Positions 38,653-58,580 of a stretch of 64,000 nucleotides of DNA are shown in pieces. Source of the DNA: Limnobacter alexandrii (GTDB lineage: Bacteria > Pseudomonadota > Gammaproteobacteria > Burkholderiales > Burkholderiaceae_B); NCBI RefSeq assembly GCF_005871185.1, contig NZ_SWKN01000006.1, positions 372,001 to 436,000 of the forward strand, read 5' to 3'. Every line of letters starts with the position of its first letter. The stretch's first letter is position 1. The notes under the pieces are model-generated. The model did not search any database, was not told the origin of the DNA, and saw nothing but the letters and a program-made list of their open reading frames with translations. The translations under genes and the position numbers were made by a program.

Positions 38653-40551
38653 ATGACCACAGCAAGCCTGGAAGAACAACTACAACCGCTGTTTGAAGAA
38701 ATTGATGCCAAGCTGCAAGCCATTGAAAACGGTGTGTACTTGCAGCGTCAAGATGCTGAAAAAACAATCAATCAACTGGCTGTGTTGGTGAACGAATGCC
38801 AGAACAAACCCTATGCCAGTTTGATGCAGTTGAGCATTGTGGGCACCACAGAACTGTGTACCCGCTTTGCTGCGCTGTACGTGAATGTGCTCACCGATCT
38901 GAAACACACCTTGAGCCTGAACAGCCTGCTGGTACTGACCAAGCAAAAGCGCTTCATGAGCCATGTGTTCGAAGTATCGGGCTACGGCAACAACCGCGCC
39001 GTACTCAAACTGTTGTTGAACAAAGCCCACGAACGCAAAGCCAAGCAACTGACGGACAACCCGGCACTGGTGCGCGCACTGCTGCTGGCCAGCGTGGGTG
39101 ACCTGGACCCTGCCGACCTGGTAGAACTGACACTGGAAAGCACGGAAACTTCGGCCTTGCTGGCCATTGGTTTGCTCCTCGATCGCCTGCCCTTGACACT
39201 GACGGGCGACGCTGGCCGCACCTTCCTGCTGGAAGAATACAACCCCTACAGTGCGCTTCGCCCGCTGGATCAATACCGTGCCTTGATTTCCAATATCTGG
39301 ATGCTTTGCAGCTACAGCACCAGCCCGCGCAAACATGAAATCAAAAAGCATCTGAACCAGTGGTTCAAGCGGGTGCTCAAAGCCAAAGGCATTCAGGCCA
39401 AGCCTGCGGGCAGCGTGCGGCATGCGGGCAACATCGACAACAAACCCGTAATGGCTGTGATCGCAGAAACATTCAAATCAGTGCATGCCATGTACCGTTG
39501 GTATGCGCCCATGATCAAGCGCCTGAAACGCGACTACTACATGGTGATGGTGTCGATGAAAGCCGATGTGGATGAACAGTCCATGGGCCTGTTTGATGAA
39601 TTCATTGAGGTGCCCGACGAAGAAATGAACCTGCAACCCGTGCTGAACCAGTGCACCCCGGACATTGCCTGGTTCATGAGCGTGGGCATGCGCTCTTGGG
39701 GAATTTCACTGGCCAACTTGCGCTGGGCACCACTGCAAACCATGAGCTTTGGGCACCCGGCCAGCAGCTTTAGCACTGAAATGGATTTGGCATTTGTCAC
39801 CAGCCGCGTGTTCGGCGGCCCAGGTGTGGTGAATGAAAACATGCTGATTCTGGAAAGTGAAATTGGCAATGTGGCCGAGGCCCACAAAGACCTGAAACTG
39901 CCACCACCCCCGGTACTGGATGACTCCGTGGTGTCGATTGCAGTGCCTTGCAACACCATGAAAATCAATTTGGGATTCATTACCGCATTGAAGGAAATTG
40001 AACGCCTGTCGGCCAAGCCGGTGCGCTTCACTTTCTTCCCCAACGAGTATGGCGTGGGGCATTTGTCGACCGAAAAACGTCTGTGCAGTTTCTTCCCCAC
40101 TGCGGTGGTGGCCCGCCGCACCGGCTACGAAGCGTATTTGAACCTGTTGAACCAACACCACCTGGCACTCAGCCCGTTTCCGTTTGGCAACGCAACCAGC
40201 ACCATCGATTGCATGGTGTTGGGCCTGCCTGTCATCAGCTTGATTGGTGCTGAGCCGCATTCACGCAGTGACTACGACATTCTGGCCTCACTCGGCCTGG
40301 CTGAATACTGCGTCGCCGACTCGGTAGAAAACTATGTGCACGGCGTGGTGCGCTACATCAATGAACCAGGTTTGCTGGAAGAGCTGCGCGCCATGGTGGC
40401 CTCCAAACAATTCATGGACTTGCACCAGCAAAACGAGAATGAGTTTTCCGATGAAATGTGCAAGGCATTGAACTGGGCCTATGCGAACCAAGAAGAAGTG
40501 CGTGGGCCAAAGGGATTGGTGCTTGAAGGAAAAGGCAAGTGGTTACCGTGA
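38653..40551 (+). CDS. HMW1C-like glycosyltransferase (GT41)
   Basis: A 632-residue cytoplasmic protein, close to HMW1C size (about 620). The N-terminal ~260 residues are helical and poorly conserved. The GT-B part matches HMW1C in order: KPVMAVIAETFKSVHAMYR (about 264-282), APLQTMSFGHPASS (359-372), CNTMKINLGF with the UDP-contacting Lys437, SPFPFGNATSTIDCMVLGLP (507-526) and HSRSDYDILASLGLAEYCVA (536-555). HMW1C enzymes put hexose on Asn of adhesins or flagellins in the cytoplasm. No adhesin or two-partner secretion gene is adjacent; instead it ends a sugar-modifying operon, 18 bp after the dehydrogenase. Acceptor and donor sugar unknown. Confidence 0.85.
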   Translation: MTTASLEEQLQPLFEEIDAKLQAIENGVYLQRQDAEKTINQLAVLVNECQNKPYASLMQLSIVGTTELCTRFAALYVNVLTDLKHTLSLNSLLVLTKQKRFMSHVFEVSGYGNNRAVLKLLLNKAHERKAKQLTDNPALVRALLLASVGDLDPADLVELTLESTETSALLAIGLLLDRLPLTLTGDAGRTFLLEEYNPYSALRPLDQYRALISNIWMLCSYSTSPRKHEIKKHLNQWFKRVLKAKGIQAKPAGSVRHAGNIDNKPVMAVIAETFKSVHAMYRWYAPMIKRLKRDYYMVMVSMKADVDEQSMGLFDEFIEVPDEEMNLQPVLNQCTPDIAWFMSVGMRSWGISLANLRWAPLQTMSFGHPASSFSTEMDLAFVTSRVFGGPGVVNENMLILESEIGNVAEAHKDLKLPPPPVLDDSVVSIAVPCNTMKINLGFITALKEIERLSAKPVRFTFFPNEYGVGHLSTEKRLCSFFPTAVVARRTGYEAYLNLLNQHHLALSPFPFGNATSTIDCMVLGLPVISLIGAEPHSRSDYDILASLGLAEYCVADSVENYVHGVVRYINEPGLLEELRAMVASKQFMDLHQQNENEFSDEMCKALNWAYANQEEVRGPKGLVLEGKGKWLP

Positions 40552-40658
40552 AGGTCAGGTTCTTACTGTTAAACTGGAATCACAAGCAAACTGGGTTTTA
40601 AAATTTTAATTCATTTAAAACAATAAGTTATAAAATTCAAAACACATTTCATTTTTGA

Positions 40659-40694
40659 TTTACAATATTGAGTAAATTTACTCAATATTGTAAA
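40659..40694. repeat. Perfect 36-bp palindrome abutting a start codon
   Basis: TTTACAATATTGAGTAAA is followed directly by its reverse complement, making an uninterrupted 36-bp palindrome that ends 1 bp before the ATG at 40696. There is no Shine-Dalgarno sequence between it and the start. As DNA it would be an exceptionally strong dimer operator; as RNA an 18-bp hairpin would bury the ribosome-binding region. The stretch 40552-40658 upstream is AT-rich and has no gene. Confidence 0.95.
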
Positions 40695-40695
40695 A

Positions 40696-41964
40696 ATGTA
40701 CAGTCGCCATCAAATTTCCACGCTTCGGCAAAGGCTTCAGGAAACACCCAAGTTCATGATTGCCGTCACTGGCCCACGGCAGGTGGGAAAAACCACCATG
40801 GTCAATCAGGTTCTTGACGAACAGCCAGCCGCGCACAGGTTTTTTGTATCAACAGAACAACGGGAAACCTTTTCCACCAACCTCACCACGTTCGACTTCG
40901 ATTCAAATGAGGAGTCAGATTACACCCCCCCCCCAAGGTCAGAAGAATGGCTTGTTCACACATGGAACAAAGCGAGAGCCCAAGCTCTGCGGATCACCAA
41001 CGGCACCCATTACATTTTGGCGATTGATGAAATACAGAAAATTCCGAACTGGTCAGAAGTAGTAAAAGGCCTGTGGGATAAAGATCGAATTGAACGACTG
41101 CCCATGCATGTGGTGTTACTTGGATCGTCGCCCTGGCTGATGCAAAAAGGCCTGACAGAAAGCCTTGCAGGTCGCTTTGAGCGCATTCATTTAAGCCACT
41201 GGTCTTTTCGTGAAATGCAAGAAGCATTCGACTTCACGCTGGATCAGTATATTTATTTTGGTGGATACCCGGGCTCAGCCAGCCTAATAGGTGACGAACA
41301 ACGCTGGCGAGCTTATGTACAGCATTCATTGATTGACCCCATCATCAACAAAGACATTCTTGAACATAACCGCATTCACAAACCGGCACTGCTCAAACAA
41401 CTTTTTGAACTGGGTTGCGGTGCCTATTCAGGTCAAATTCTGGCACTCAGTAAAATTGTTGATGGGGGGCTTCTGCAAGAAGCCGGTAACACAACAACAT
41501 TGAGCGATTATATTAGCCTGCTATCCGCTGCAGAACTGCTCAGCGGGCTTCAAAAATACGCCAATAAAGAACATCGCAAGCGAGCCTCTGCTCCCAAATT
41601 CAATGCGCACAATACCGCGCTGATGTCTGCACTAGCGGGGTATACCTTTGCTGAAGCTAAGGCCGATCGAAGCCACTGGGGACGACTTGTGGAAACTTGT
41701 GTGGGGGCGCATCTGATGAATACTGCACAAGGCGAATGCGACATTCACTACTGGCGCGAGGGTGGCGACGAAGTGGACTTTGTGTTGAGCAAAAATTCCA
41801 AACTCTTGGGTATTGAAGTAAAAAGCGGAAAAACAGGAATCGCGCATAAAGGACTGCAAGCATTTAGTCAAACCCACACAGGATCAAAAACACTGCTGGT
41901 TGGGGATGCTGGAATTCCTGTTTACGATTTCTTAAGTGCGCCCGCAAGTCACTGGCTGGGGTAA
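40696..41964 (+). CDS. AAA-type ATPase with DUF4143 domain
   Basis: A 422-residue P-loop ATPase of the AAA_14/DUF4143 group. Walker A is GPRQVGKTT (26-34), Walker B YILAIDE (106-112), with a later FGGYPGS and GRLVETCVGAHL. The C-terminal DUF4143 half ends in a PD-(D/E)XK-like motif: Asp361 (EVDFVLS), then Glu374 and Lys376 (GIEVKSG). The family is widespread, often linked to defence or mobile DNA, and has no proven role. The coding frame contains a run of ten C (40925-40934) between Walker A and B. A giant NTPase gene follows 8 bp later. ATG 40696 directly follows the 36-bp palindrome. Confidence 0.9.
   Translation: MYSRHQISTLRQRLQETPKFMIAVTGPRQVGKTTMVNQVLDEQPAAHRFFVSTEQRETFSTNLTTFDFDSNEESDYTPPPRSEEWLVHTWNKARAQALRITNGTHYILAIDEIQKIPNWSEVVKGLWDKDRIERLPMHVVLLGSSPWLMQKGLTESLAGRFERIHLSHWSFREMQEAFDFTLDQYIYFGGYPGSASLIGDEQRWRAYVQHSLIDPIINKDILEHNRIHKPALLKQLFELGCGAYSGQILALSKIVDGGLLQEAGNTTTLSDYISLLSAAELLSGLQKYANKEHRKRASAPKFNAHNTALMSALAGYTFAEAKADRSHWGRLVETCVGAHLMNTAQGECDIHYWREGGDEVDFVLSKNSKLLGIEVKSGKTGIAHKGLQAFSQTHTGSKTLLVGDAGIPVYDFLSAPASHWLG
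40925..40934. repeat. Run of ten C inside the ATPase gene
   Basis: The run reads in frame as T-P-P-P (residues 77-80) in the ATPase, between the Walker motifs. Homopolymers of this length are prone to slipped-strand mispairing; a gain or loss of one base would truncate the protein at about residue 80. This can make a reversible on/off switch (phase variation). It is by far the longest G/C run I noticed in the window. Confidence 0.92.
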
Positions 41965-41972
41965 GAAACCAC

Positions 41973-44900
41973 ATGCTCATTCCTCGCAAAGTCACCGAGT
42001 ATCAGTTAACCGACTACTCTCCGCATTTACAAGGCAAGGCCATACCGCTTGCCGAACTTCGAGAGGTGAAGTCGTGGGTTCTTCTGGGCGAGCCGGGCTC
42101 TGGCAAAAGCACGGTATTCGAAGAAGAGTGCAAAAGAACAGGCGGTAAAGTAATACGAGTCAGTGAGTTTCTCGATGAAGAGCTTGCCGATTTAACTGAA
42201 GAACCTGTCATTTATCTGGACGCCTTGGACGAAGCGCGCAACACAACAAGCAATGCTGGAAAGCTACTGTGGCAAGTTGCAAAAAAACTGAGGCAATTGG
42301 GCCACCCACCATTCAGAATTTCATGCCGGGCTGCGGACTGGTATGGTGATCTGGATCATAATGATTTAAAACGAGTTGATCCGGCTCTTCGGATTTTCAA
42401 GCTTGATGAACTCTCAATCGATGACAGGTTTGTGCAGCAATACATCAAGGAGCAGTTGAATGCCAGGCCGGGCAATATGCCTGCCGCGGAATTTTTGAAC
42501 CGGGTAGAACAACAAAACCTGAAGGCCTTGCTAGCTAATCCCTTATTGATCAGGCTGCTGATCGACTCAATTCACAACCATCAGTTTCCCGAGTCGCGGC
42601 GTGAGGTATTTGAATTTGCTACTCAAAAGCTGGCTAAAGAACACGACAAGCACTATCAAAAGTACGCCCCGGATGAAAAATATTCGATTGACGACATCGT
42701 GGATCGAGCGGGCTACTTGTGCAGCATCATGTTGTTCAGCAACCGCTTGGGCTTCGCTTTAAGCGATGGGAATGCACACAGCAATACTCATTTACAATCC
42801 GATGAATTGGGCGGGCTAAACTCCCTAAGCCTGCGCGCACTGCGAAGTACACTTTTCCGACCATCCCATTTACCAGACACTGCCGAGCCTTTTCACCGAA
42901 CAGTTGCAGAATTTTTGGCTGCAAAATGGATCGCAAAACAGATTGAACAACACACTTTGCCAATCGGTCGAGTACTGCGCCTGTTCGAAGGTTTTGACAA
43001 AAAAACAGTGGCTAGTTTAAGGGGACTATTCGCCTGGGTAGCCACCCTTAGCCTTGGTGCTTTTCAGCGTATGGTTGAAATTGATCCGCTTGGCATTGCA
43101 ATTTATGGCGATGCCGCCTACCTAAGCACGACACAAAAAAAACAAGTGATTCTTGCGCTTCAAAGGGAAGCCAAAACTTATTTCGGTTTTAGCTGGCAAG
43201 TTCCCTTCAAAAGCCCGCTTCACGCACTTTGGGACCCAGCGTTTGAATCGTTTTTTATCGAAAATTTCACCAACGTATCCAGAGAAAAACCTCACCAAGC
43301 TTTCATGCGTGAACTGCTGTGCATATTGCAAGGTAACAAGGCAAGTGATCAATTAGCATTTGCTTTAGAAAAAATTGTTGCAGACCACAGTTTCTGGGAC
43401 AGTGTTCGAAGCGCCGCGCTTGATGTACTTCTGGTTGCGCCCGAACAGCAAAGTCATATTTTGTCATTGCTTGATCAAATTAAGAACGATGAAATCGAAG
43501 ACCCAGAAGACCAATTGTTGGGCGCATTGCTAAGCACACTCTACCCCTTGGCAATATCCACAACATCGATTCTTCGCTACCTTCATCGCGCCAAGAATCC
43601 AAATTTAATCGGCGACTATCTTTATTTTTGGGAACATGAATTACCAAAACGTGTGCCGAAAGGTGATCTTCCAGTTTTGCTGGATCAACTGGCCAAAAGA
43701 CTTGATTTGCCATGGCCGAGAACGGAAAGTCTTAATTTGCAAAGAATGATCGGCAAGTTGGTTCTACGCGGCCTGAATGAGCTGGGCGATGAAGCACATG
43801 ATGAGCAGTTGTTCACATGGCTTGGTATTGGCCAAGATGAATATGGCCATGTCGACCGAACTGCAGAACATCAACAACAAATTGGCACGTGGTTTGGTGA
43901 ACGGGAAGGTCGATACCTTTCATTCCTTGAAAAAGCCGTTGAGAAATCACTTTCAAAAAAAAATCCATACTATGCCTACCACACAACGAAGGAATGGATT
44001 TTTGTCAATAAATTGCCGGTCCAACTGGGCTTGTGGCATTTGAAAAAAGCGGATTCAGCAACTACCCACACTGCCGTGGAAATTCATGTGGGTGAAGCCA
44101 TACGCTATCTTTCATTTCAACAGGGAAATGAAGGACTTTCGCTGGAGATGATCGACGAATTTTCATTAAAACACCCGGAGCACAGCGACTACATTCAAGC
44201 GCACTTTTTTCATGAACTCTCTAACGATGAACTTGAACTAGCCAAACACCGAAACAATTCAATACAGATAGCCAATCAAAGAAAAACTGAAACCACGAAA
44301 ACGCTTTCAAACAATTTAGACGCGATTAAAGCTGGCACAGCCAGTTTGGGAATATTTTATAAGCTCGCAATTGTTTGGCTGGACCTTGCCACCGACATAA
44401 GTGGAAGTAATCCACAACAACGATTCGACAGCCTTTGTTTCAACGGCACAGAAGTTTATCAGGCAGCCAGAGCGGGATTTGCAAAATTCATTCTGTTGTC
44501 TGCTTTTGCAAACCACACCGAAATTATCGAATCCTATACAAACAGCAAAAGACCCTGGAATCACTTCCCTGCAATTATTGGCCTGGAGGTTCTTTTCGAA
44601 GAAAACCCGAATGCTTTTACATCAATCGATGAAAACCGGTTGAAAAGTTTTGTTGCCACGCAACTGGCTTATGGCCTGGAAGAAAAGCCGAAGTGGCTTG
44701 AGTATGTCGCCCAAATTAAGCCACTGCCGGTTTCAGAAGTTTGGGTTCGGTTTGTGCTGGCCACCTTCAAGAAGGTTCAGCTTCATGGAGCAAACATTTC
44801 CGGGATTTGCGATTGGCCTGAGTATCTTGAAGTTGCATTGATTGGCGTGCCCCGAGTGCTTGAAAAATATCCAGTTCGCAGCCGCTCGGATCAACTGGGT

Positions 44901-46022
44901 AATTTACGGCGCTTGCTTTACTTTGCCATACAAAATCTGCCTGAAAAGTTGCAGCCCATGGTCAAGAAAAAGTTGAACAATAAAAGTATGGACGCTGCCC
45001 AGCGTGTGTACTGGATCACGACTGGCTTGGCGATTGATTCGTCTGCTTATGAAAGCCAGTTGATTACCGAGTTGGTAAATTCAGAAACCAAAGCGAATTA
45101 TTTTTTCCAGTTTATTGAACACAGTGCACGTGAAAACAATTATATATCCAGCACATCAGCCCTGTTTTTATCTCGATTGATTGAGGTGATTGCACCGAAT
45201 GCAAACCCTGGCATTGAAAATATGGAGAATGCAGTTAGTCGTTCTGGTGAATTGTGGCGGAGCCTGCGCCGCTTGATCACCCAGCTCGGTGAAAGCGAAG
45301 ACCCTGACGCACTGACAGAACTTCGACGACTTCAGCAATTGCCCGAACTGGAAAAAATCAATTTTCTACTTGAACACACTGCTTATGATGTGCAAATTCG
45401 CGTTCGGGAAAAGTCGTTTGCATTCCTGAAACCAGAAGGTCTAATCAAGGTTCTAAACAATCGCGAGCCTGTTGATGTAAAAGACCTGCAGCAATTGATT
45501 GTTGAACATCTTGACGACTACGCTGAGATGATTCACAAGAACAAGGCAAATATCTATGCCTTCTTTTGGGATAAAAACAAAACACGTCGCCCCGCAGATG
45601 AAAATTATTGTCGGAATATTATTCTCCACGAGTTGGAAAACAAACTTTCACGACACGGCATTGGATTTGAACCTGAGGCCCAGCATGTCAACAACAAACG
45701 GGCAGACATTAAGGCATTATTCAGCAACAAGTTTTCTGTTTCTATGGAATTCAAATGCGACTGGAACAAGGATCTTTGGAAAGGCCTGCCTGAACAGTTG
45801 ATCAACCAGTATTCCATTGAGCCTAATGCGAATAGGCATGGAATTTATGTCGTGCTGTGGTTTGGAAAACATGACCGTGGGCCTATTCCTGAAACGCTGG
45901 ACGGCTCACCCAAACCCCAAACACCCAAGCAACTTGAAGAGTATCTTTTGAGTTTACTGAACCCGGAAGAAAAACAACGAATACTTGTTCGGGTTATCAA
46001 CCTTGAATGGACTGGTGCCTGA
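41973..46022 (+). CDS. Giant STAND-like NTPase with C-terminal PD-(D/E)XK-like domain
   Basis: A 1349-residue protein. Near the N-terminus are Walker A GEPGSGKST (39-47), Walker B VIYLDALDEA (79-88) and a sensor-like FRISCRAADWYGD, the order seen in STAND/NACHT-type signal NTPases. A long helical middle (about 400-1150) has HEAT/ARM-like character without a clear repeat. At the C-terminus, a helix (CRNIILHELENKLSRHG), RADIKAL (Asp1245), SMEFKC (Glu1259, Lys1261) and LPEQLINQY match a PD-(D/E)XK nuclease. Sensor-NTPase-nuclease layouts are typical of anti-phage proteins. Starts 8 bp after the ATPase gene; stop abuts the convergent cobalamin operon. Family not recognised by name. Confidence 0.85.
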   Translation: MLIPRKVTEYQLTDYSPHLQGKAIPLAELREVKSWVLLGEPGSGKSTVFEEECKRTGGKVIRVSEFLDEELADLTEEPVIYLDALDEARNTTSNAGKLLWQVAKKLRQLGHPPFRISCRAADWYGDLDHNDLKRVDPALRIFKLDELSIDDRFVQQYIKEQLNARPGNMPAAEFLNRVEQQNLKALLANPLLIRLLIDSIHNHQFPESRREVFEFATQKLAKEHDKHYQKYAPDEKYSIDDIVDRAGYLCSIMLFSNRLGFALSDGNAHSNTHLQSDELGGLNSLSLRALRSTLFRPSHLPDTAEPFHRTVAEFLAAKWIAKQIEQHTLPIGRVLRLFEGFDKKTVASLRGLFAWVATLSLGAFQRMVEIDPLGIAIYGDAAYLSTTQKKQVILALQREAKTYFGFSWQVPFKSPLHALWDPAFESFFIENFTNVSREKPHQAFMRELLCILQGNKASDQLAFALEKIVADHSFWDSVRSAALDVLLVAPEQQSHILSLLDQIKNDEIEDPEDQLLGALLSTLYPLAISTTSILRYLHRAKNPNLIGDYLYFWEHELPKRVPKGDLPVLLDQLAKRLDLPWPRTESLNLQRMIGKLVLRGLNELGDEAHDEQLFTWLGIGQDEYGHVDRTAEHQQQIGTWFGEREGRYLSFLEKAVEKSLSKKNPYYAYHTTKEWIFVNKLPVQLGLWHLKKADSATTHTAVEIHVGEAIRYLSFQQGNEGLSLEMIDEFSLKHPEHSDYIQAHFFHELSNDELELAKHRNNSIQIANQRKTETTKTLSNNLDAIKAGTASLGIFYKLAIVWLDLATDISGSNPQQRFDSLCFNGTEVYQAARAGFAKFILLSAFANHTEIIESYTNSKRPWNHFPAIIGLEVLFEENPNAFTSIDENRLKSFVATQLAYGLEEKPKWLEYVAQIKPLPVSEVWVRFVLATFKKVQLHGANISGICDWPEYLEVALIGVPRVLEKYPVRSRSDQLGNLRRLLYFAIQNLPEKLQPMVKKKLNNKSMDAAQRVYWITTGLAIDSSAYESQLITELVNSETKANYFFQFIEHSARENNYISSTSALFLSRLIEVIAPNANPGIENMENAVSRSGELWRSLRRLITQLGESEDPDALTELRRLQQLPELEKINFLLEHTAYDVQIRVREKSFAFLKPEGLIKVLNNREPVDVKDLQQLIVEHLDDYAEMIHKNKANIYAFFWDKNKTRRPADENYCRNIILHELENKLSRHGIGFEPEAQHVNNKRADIKALFSNKFSVSMEFKCDWNKDLWKGLPEQLINQYSIEPNANRHGIYVVLWFGKHDRGPIPETLDGSPKPQTPKQLEEYLLSLLNPEEKQRILVRVINLEWTGA

Positions 46023-58326: not shown

Positions 58327-58343
58327 GTGCGCCATTGGCGCAC
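58327..58343 (-). promoter_or_regulatory. Hairpin following the riboswitch, likely expression platform
   Basis: GTGCGCC (58327-58333) and GGCGCAC (58337-58343) form a perfect 7-bp stem with a 3-nt loop, immediately downstream of the riboswitch aptamer and before btuB. No T-run follows, so translational control of the btuB start, rather than termination, is favoured. Confidence 0.5.
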
Positions 58344-58353
58344 CCCGTTGTTG

Positions 58354-58521
58354 GCCGGTATCCGGGCTGGCAGACTTACCCTCACCACCTTCTCAGGCGT
58401 TTGAAAACACCCAATGGTTTTTGATGAGAGCCAAGCTAGACGCTTGTCTGCGTACCGTTGCGGGGGCAGCGCTAAAGAGCTTCCCGTTTAACTTCAGAAC
58501 AGGGACTGTTCCGAGAGCACC
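58354..58521 (-). promoter_or_regulatory. Cobalamin riboswitch
   Basis: Reading the minus strand, the aptamer opens GGTGCTCTCGG (58521), then carries AAACGGGAAGCTC, the conserved core GCTGCCCCCGCAACGGTA, and the closing B12 box AGTCTGCCAGCCCGGATACC. These are the diagnostic elements of the AdoCbl riboswitch in the right order. It lies 84 nt upstream of btuB and should switch off the whole 13-gene operon when cobalamin is plentiful. The stretch 58271-58580 holds only this element and its platform. Confidence 0.95.
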
Positions 58522-58580
58522 AACAAACCAGATTGTACAGCAGCACAGCGCAATTTTTGGGGATTCAAACGGCGCATGGT

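Follow-up and report, generated by a model that had tools for sequence, protein, structure and literature searches.

The window, a stretch of 64,000 nucleotides of Limnobacter alexandrii DNA, contains a 36-bp palindrome that precedes two genes designated here gene A and gene B (Table 1). The palindrome, TTTACAATATTGAGTAAATTTACTCAATATTGTAAA, is identical to its own reverse complement, with arms of 18 and 18 bp and a spacer of 0, and a single base (40695) separates its end from the ATG of gene A (40696), just as the initial annotation had described it. The second-longest perfect palindrome within the window measures 16 bp, and at the base composition of the AT-rich leader (40552–40695, 77% A+T) approximately 9e-5 palindromes of this kind are expected by chance per 64 kb. 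It is unique in its own genome (3.49 Mb, 14 contigs) at up to 3 mismatches, while its 18-bp core, TTGAGTAAATTTACTCAA, has one further site there, at 3 mismatches; the exact core is present in this genome alone among 274 genomes of the class. What is conserved is the half-site TGAGTAA/TTACTCA and not the perfect 36-bp symmetry. In an alignment of relatives' palindromes, the bases themselves are retained at positions 2–8 to each side of the dyad, and in Limnobacter sp. 130 (locus L011), whose gene A is 95% identical, 2 of the 18 palindrome pairs are broken.

Table 1. Features at the palindrome locus, numbered by position in the 64,000-nucleotide window.
Feature	Position	Strand	Remarks
AT-rich leader	40552..40658	.	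Missing along with the operon in three same-genus genomes
Palindrome, proposed promoter-operator of the two-gene operon	40659..40694	.	Counterparts in 63/81 upstream regions, window included
Outer element TTTAC	40659..40663	+	Mirror GTAAA at 40690–40694
TACAAT, tentative -10-like hexamer in left arm	40661..40666	+	No good -35 in the window
Conserved core, inner half-sites TGAGTAA / TTACTCA	40668..40685	.	63/81 regions
Gene A, 422 aa, AAA_14 ATPase + winged helix + DUF4143 (nuclease-like end)	40696..41964	+	PADLOC candidate PDC-S01
Winged helix of gene A, proposed palindrome reader	41383..41607	+	About residues 230–304, read from the predicted model
Gene B, 1349 aa, EruA-like NACHT-type NTPase	41973..46022	+	NF058535, 806 bits

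The identification of gene A as an AAA/DUF4143 ATPase was borne out by Pfam, in which PF13173 (AAA_14; E 5e-24, 85.1 bits, gathering threshold 27) and PF13635 (DUF4143; E 4e-22, 79.2 bits, gathering threshold 28.1) both exceeded their cut-offs. Residues 1–420 also matched, over the full length, the PADLOC model PDLC04791 (546 bits, E 9e-165) of PDC-S01. An AlphaFold2 model of the protein (pLDDT 88.6) contains, within domain limits that are our own reading of the model, an AAA domain at about residues 1–222, a winged helix at about 230–304 and then a nuclease-like end. A Foldseek search with this model returned the Pyrococcus abyssi ATPase 2qen first, followed by ORC/Cdc6 (some of them DNA-bound), Apaf-1 and Avs3, all with low TM-scores, and a sequence search of the PDB gave 4 matches, the best two of which were local P-loop stretches of RecA. 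Across 41 gene A sequences, residues S245, K253, G258, G264, N265, T268, Y272 and L275 are invariant and the winged-helix stretch AGNTTTL is near-invariant. Where the half-sites are different (TTGAACATTTT or TTTTGAGAATTTT; three loci, L088, L097 and L138), AGNVTTL or VGNVTTL replaces AGNTTTL, a suggestive pairing of half-site variants with an altered recognition helix that may go back to one event. A run of ten C inside the gene (40925–40934, about residues 77–80) adjoins a low-confidence stretch of the model and is absent from L011; it is a possible slippage site.

Gene B resembles the family that NCBI names EruA (NF058535, NACHT domain-containing antiphage protein), with residues 25–1344 aligning to positions 17–1317 of the 1318-position profile (E 9.8e-242). 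Its score and that of its counterpart in L011 (822 bits) lie below the equivalog cut-off of 1000, and gene B is therefore called EruA-like, not EruA. That cut-off was passed by one of eight gene-B-type proteins scanned (L012, 1079 bits). The score against HyoA (NF058534) was 121 bits, below the cut-off of 1200, and no Pfam family was found in gene B above cut-off.

The absence of any similar palindrome before close homologues of gene A was one half of what the initial annotation had named as refuting its reading. Of 123 gene A relatives found by scanning GTDB genomes, the best 80 were used, and the 150 bp before each match were scored together with the window, giving 81 regions. The core was present at ≤3 mismatches in 63 of them, at ≤4 in 77 and at ≤5 in 80; because the relatives were picked by similarity to the window, these figures measure conservation within its clade. 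The best site had 0 mismatches in 7 regions, 1 in 14, 2 in 23, 3 in 19, 4 in 14, 5 in 3 and more in a single one (L067), which yet carries a pair of half-sites spaced by 22 bp. When the regions of the 80 relatives were shuffled, ≤3 mismatches occurred in 0.075%, ≤4 in 0.3% and ≤5 in 1.8%, and elsewhere in the 80 loci only 4 core-like sites (≤3 mismatches) were found in 849 kb. A whole-genome search of 229 genomes of the class added 8 relatives of gene A (40–55% identity); the core was found at ≤3 mismatches in four of their loci (L003, L004, L005 and L008) and not found at that level in the other four (L006, L007, L009 and L010). This comparison did not refute the reading.

A tree of 80 gene A proteins, from which L049 (broken frame) was excluded, spans 11 phylum-level groups and comprises 50 rows of about 420 aa and 30 of about 394 aa. 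The branch of ~420 aa has a single dyad, and a relative of gene B (~1350 aa) follows in 49 of its 51 loci, several of these relatives being broken or cut by contig ends; the exceptions are L055, in which a different gene follows, and L064, in which the contig ends. No gene-B relative was found in the 30 loci of the ~394-aa branch, of which L074, L076 and L090 end <200 bp after the gene and are uninformative on this point. This solo branch has the same half-sites in phased arrays. With four plasmid or phage records (L093–L096) added to the 30, the 34 solo-type loci contain 139 half-sites, against 29 expected. Writing F and R for the two half-site orientations, F-F pairs are spaced by 22 bp (44 pairs), 44 bp (14) and 66 bp (6), R-R by 22 bp (17), F-R by 9 bp (27) and R-F by 13 bp (42). 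A period of 22 bp corresponds to about two turns of DNA. Several loci depart from the two-gene layout. In the Dadabacteria locus L055, gene A and the motif are kept and gene B is absent, and the ORFs directly after gene A are sized like those that follow gene B in L053 (a comparison of sizes, unaligned). In L038 and L048, gene A continues in frame into a part resembling the later half of gene B; these reading frames extend 846 and 873 aa from the match, reflecting fusion, deletion or assembly error.

The position of the dyad relative to the gene is as regular as its sequence. With the nearest in-frame ATG taken as the start codon (in some loci another precedes it by a few codons), 28 of the 51 single-dyad loci have their dyad centre exactly 26 nt ahead of the ATG. 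These 28 share a TTGAGT-like -35, 17 bp, a TAATAT-like -10, exactly 6 unconserved bases and the ATG, and the right-hand counterpart of the outer element TTTAC also serves as the beginning of the -10 box. TTGA is present at -35 in 28/28, TA at -12/-11 in 27/28 and TAnnnT in 23/28, conservation that is partly built in, since TTGAGT falls within the half-site. TAnnnT, seen at offset 6 in these 23, also occurs in the 28 loci at other palindrome offsets (21 at 11, 19 at 24 and 20 at 36), so the case for a promoter is based on the constant distance and on the T at -7, which is conserved in 25 of the 31 loci with a spacing of 25–28 nt and at which conservation ends. No Shine-Dalgarno-like stretch was found in the last 16 bases before the ATG in any of the 51 single-dyad loci. 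Judged by these sequence features, the palindrome in the 28 relatives is probably the promoter of a leaderless message.

The hint in the initial annotation that the transcript might be leaderless fits these relatives, while at the window itself a sigma70 scan of positions 40500–40800 found no promoter. The -35 opposite the window's TACAAT is poor (3/6 matches). A left-arm TAnnnT is no peculiarity of the window-like group, occurring in 14 of its 17 loci and also in 22 of the 33 others. In 9 of the 17 (L012, L015–L019, L021, L023 and L048), a hexamer 17 bp upstream agrees with a -35 at 4 or 5 of its 6 bases; the window and L011 have none at that spacing.

Which of the two genes the motif accompanies was apparent from loci of the EruA family. 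Matches at E ≤0.001 were obtained in 53 of 299 genomes, and the best 30 places were taken as loci. Gene A lies within 1.5 kb in three of these, L108, L115 (the window's own locus) and L117, where the core has 2, 0 and 2 mismatches, respectively. In the 27 loci without gene A, 11 of them strong (>500 bits) and the others partial or weak, the best site anywhere has ≥5 mismatches. The motif is thus present in 3/3 loci with gene A and 0/27 without it, and the solo branch has no gene-B relative, yet the same half-sites; the motif goes with gene A, not with gene B. No other neighbour family (ORFs ≥90 aa, ~6–7 kb on each side) is shared by more than 5 of 86 loci, which argues that the reader of the motif should be the product of gene A itself.

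Conservation, half-site and promoter-like geometry, inheritance with gene A, and the winged helix of the predicted model together make it likely that the palindrome is the autoregulatory promoter-operator of a candidate phage-defence operon, bound and repressed by the ATPase. The operon would combine a PDC-S01-type ATPase with an EruA-like NTPase. Copies of the ATPase would bind the paired TGAGTAA half-sites through the winged helix and, once bound, would cover the core promoter and keep expression of the operon low. If infection were to draw the ATPase away or change its nucleotide state, repression would lift. The same arrangement could explain why the palindrome abuts the gene: an operator must sit on its promoter, and transcription in many relatives probably begins with the ATG itself, so that no ribosome-binding site is needed. 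Repression is the sign of regulation that we infer, although activation may apply instead. The initial annotation had offered three ideas for the palindrome, of which a dimer operator for autoregulation is the best supported, as the site accompanies the ATPase gene from phylum to phylum and through changes of partner; the near-invariant residues of the modelled winged helix add to it, with binding by the ATPase as the inferred step. That reading was right in kind, and what had been a local guess is now a cross-phylum pattern. Copies of this switch appear to travel with one phage-defence ATPase family across many phyla, and they are most likely bound by that ATPase.

The proposed operon resembles several known systems and differs from each. 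PDC-S01 is a PADLOC candidate for single-gene defence, an AAA ATPase fused to PD-(D/E)XK, which gene A matches over its whole length; the clade of the window, in contrast, is a two-gene unit. One paper places PDC-S01 among the most widespread candidate defence systems and describes antiphage validation as pending for most PDCs (PMC12988326). In a search of open papers, no operator, promoter or regulation of PDC-S01 was found. Open papers also included none that combined DUF4143 with palindrom* or contained the literal core TGAGTAAATTTACTCA, and none was found that combined NACHT, antiphage and DUF4143; the one open paper found to mention DUF4143 deals with Thermus Argonaute. Gene B aligns over nearly the whole EruA profile, but 27 of 30 EruA-family loci are without a DUF4143 partner, whereas gene B of the window has one; no paper on an antiphage protein named EruA or HyoA was among the matches listed. 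BrxR and CapW are WYL repressors of BREX and CBASS, in which a DNA-binding protein of the defence operon acts at a site that precedes the operon. Both are transcription factors of the WYL type with no other role, whereas the repressor proposed here is the ATPase, and neither gene A nor gene B has a WYL domain according to Pfam. The operators of self-regulating toxin-antitoxin and restriction control systems are short inverted repeats over the promoter that are bound by the operon's own product. They involve a different protein family; here the arrangement appears leaderless, and the operator is kept at the base level across phyla. An operator that travels with its gene across phyla would offer a first handle on the control of PDC-S01, supplying both a ligand (the 36-mer) and a domain (the winged helix), and the two-gene unit links PDC-S01 to a family, EruA-like, that NCBI names antiphage.

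The half-sites might instead be bound by some other widely shared regulator, encoded elsewhere, for which the ATPase gene is merely a target. Such a regulator would accommodate the same arrays in phage contigs, where gene A was found in none of 80 loci and none of 9 records, as detailed below. It is unlikely, as the site is kept with one gene across 11 phylum-level groups and has no other recurrent neighbour. The site is moreover single in its own genome, and the exact core occurs in one of 274 class genomes, the organism's own, which is not like the site of a regulon.

The phage-borne arrays turn a question of regulation into a possible one of recognition or decoy. An exact F-R-N6-F array (24 fixed bases) was found in 5 IMG/VR contigs and R-N6-F-R (21 fixed bases) in at least 120 IMG/VR stretches, while reversed-pattern controls for the two gave 0 and 0 in IMG/VR. 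The contigs that bear these 22-bp phased TGAGTAA/TTACTCA arrays (L168, L172–L174, L201–L204, L206 and L218–L293) are fragmentary records. Among 80 phage arrays analysed, 76 fall within no ORF of ≥80 aa, and tblastn detected gene A in none of the 80 array-bearing stretches; a gene A profile likewise matched 0 of 9 array-bearing viral records, which are fragments, in a search run without a positive control. In 10 of the 80, the next ORF encodes 378 aa and lies 238–301 bp downstream; a scan of one such ORF, that of L251, over its first 220 residues identified a terminase large subunit. The arrays are thus not exclusive to gene A, and a recognition role beyond autoregulation, such as the self/non-self mark that the initial annotation suggested, is conceivable. 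That the array is a recognition site beyond regulation, with the ATPase sensing the phage array or being decoyed by it, is nevertheless quite improbable: it would fit the array counts with their empty controls, the location outside ORFs and the tblastn result, but shared genes connect 74 of the 80 loci with one another (the remaining 6 form four groups), the records are fragmentary, and a 301-bp array region found no isolate-phage match. Array queries of 31 and 35 bases gave partial, weak matches to isolate phages. Some viral hits were set aside or were of another kind. The exact 18-mer is present in 9 viral contigs, 5 of which were discarded because it lies inside a gene as codons for LSKFTQ, and the F-F-F pattern, seen in 5 viral contigs, comprised one true array (L206), one other repeat (L205) and three 11-bp repeats. 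In the phage contigs L207, L208 and L209, TTACTC recurs in 11-bp tandem repeats, five or six in register.

Start-proximal repeats also occur before DUF4143 genes of other clades. The loci examined were drawn from L176–L200 and L139–L166 and amounted to 49, namely 25 plus 24 of 28 distant viral loci (L142, L165 and L166, near-copies, and L149, cut short, were excluded). Ten were dropped because their start was ambiguous, and 2 that belong to the window's clade were left uncounted, which gave 37 genes. An inverted repeat near the start (p ≤0.02 against shuffles) was present in 12 of these 37 and in 14 of 200 control starts drawn from 449 (Fisher 8e-5), a lenient test, since 7% of the control starts pass at p 0.02, and one in which genes and controls were unmatched in composition. 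Strong repeats (score ≥9) preceded 6 DUF4143 genes and 2 control starts (2e-4). The repeats of other clades differ in sequence from the window's, with long examples in L182 and L153, and a self-specific start palindrome may, on this sequence comparison, be common across the DUF4143 superfamily. The window's own genome has three further DUF4143 matches (G000:C1:182240, 187158 and 218071); at 182240 (L188), an inverted repeat of 14 bp with 2 mismatches lies 3 bp before the ATG. It is conceivable, though doubtful, that the proposed operator doubles as a sensor input, the ATPase being titrated or switched by phage arrays, or the arrays serving as phage decoys, with differently spelled palindromes playing this part elsewhere among DUF4143 ATPases. 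If this were true, these ATPases would form a family of sequence-addressed defence switches.

An RNA hairpin in a 5' leader that controls translation, another idea of the initial annotation, would be suggested by the perfect 18-bp stem adjoining the ATG. Complementarity between the arms was examined at positions 5–19 in 49 sequences (L024, whose site was picked too far away, and L060, of the array type, were left out), and 551 Watson-Crick cells were counted against 462 expected from column shuffles, with positions 9, 13, 14, 17 and 18 of the outer arm standing out. Over the same positions and sequences, however, G-U mismatches (32) are not commoner than A-C (39), so there is no strand-specific RNA signature. 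Among 16 close pairs of relatives, positions 9–19 changed on one side 44 times and on both sides 14 times, and only 2 of these 14 double changes restored pairing; for 23 independent pairs the numbers were 79 and 24 (15.9 expected), with 5 of the 24 restoring pairing. In addition, the inferred start coincides with the ATG in 28 of the 51 loci, in which the palindrome would stay untranscribed, and the 22-bp phasing of half-sites in the solo branch is a DNA geometry. Control by an RNA hairpin is therefore very improbable. Some symmetry of the palindrome is kept or restored at the DNA level, and either quasi-palindrome correction or the needs of a binding protein may account for what remains of it. 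No RNA family was found at the palindrome when the 64-kb window was compared with Rfam at gathering thresholds; the sole match in the window is a cobalamin riboswitch at 58336–58539 on the minus strand (70.8 bits).

The least probable reading, that a mobile element brought both genes in and the palindrome is its end or its target site, would suit the absence of the operon and its AT-rich leader from three (L100, L101 and L102) of the four same-genus genomes in which the gene after the operon was found and the presence of gene A within unrelated gene clusters such as that of Thermus pTHEOS01, but it is opposed by the single copy of the palindrome in its own genome, the lack of a matching downstream copy, the scarcity of core-like sites outside leaders (the 4 in 849 kb noted above), the lack of any third gene family that neighbours the pair at more than 5 of 86 loci, and half-site numbers and spacings that differ by clade. 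The insertion target proposed initially is likewise not supported, there being one site, on one side only. As a candidate transposon inverted repeat the palindrome was rejected, its own genome holding no matching repeat at the other end and the 849 kb of flanks only the 4 core-like sites. Among the other same-genus genomes searched, the gene that follows the operon was found in four (L099–L102). In L100–L102 the genes flanking the operon stand side by side with 23–52 bp of unalignable sequence between them, in L099 the alignment runs on into gene B, and in Limnobacter sp. 130 the whole unit lies between the same flanking genes as in the window.
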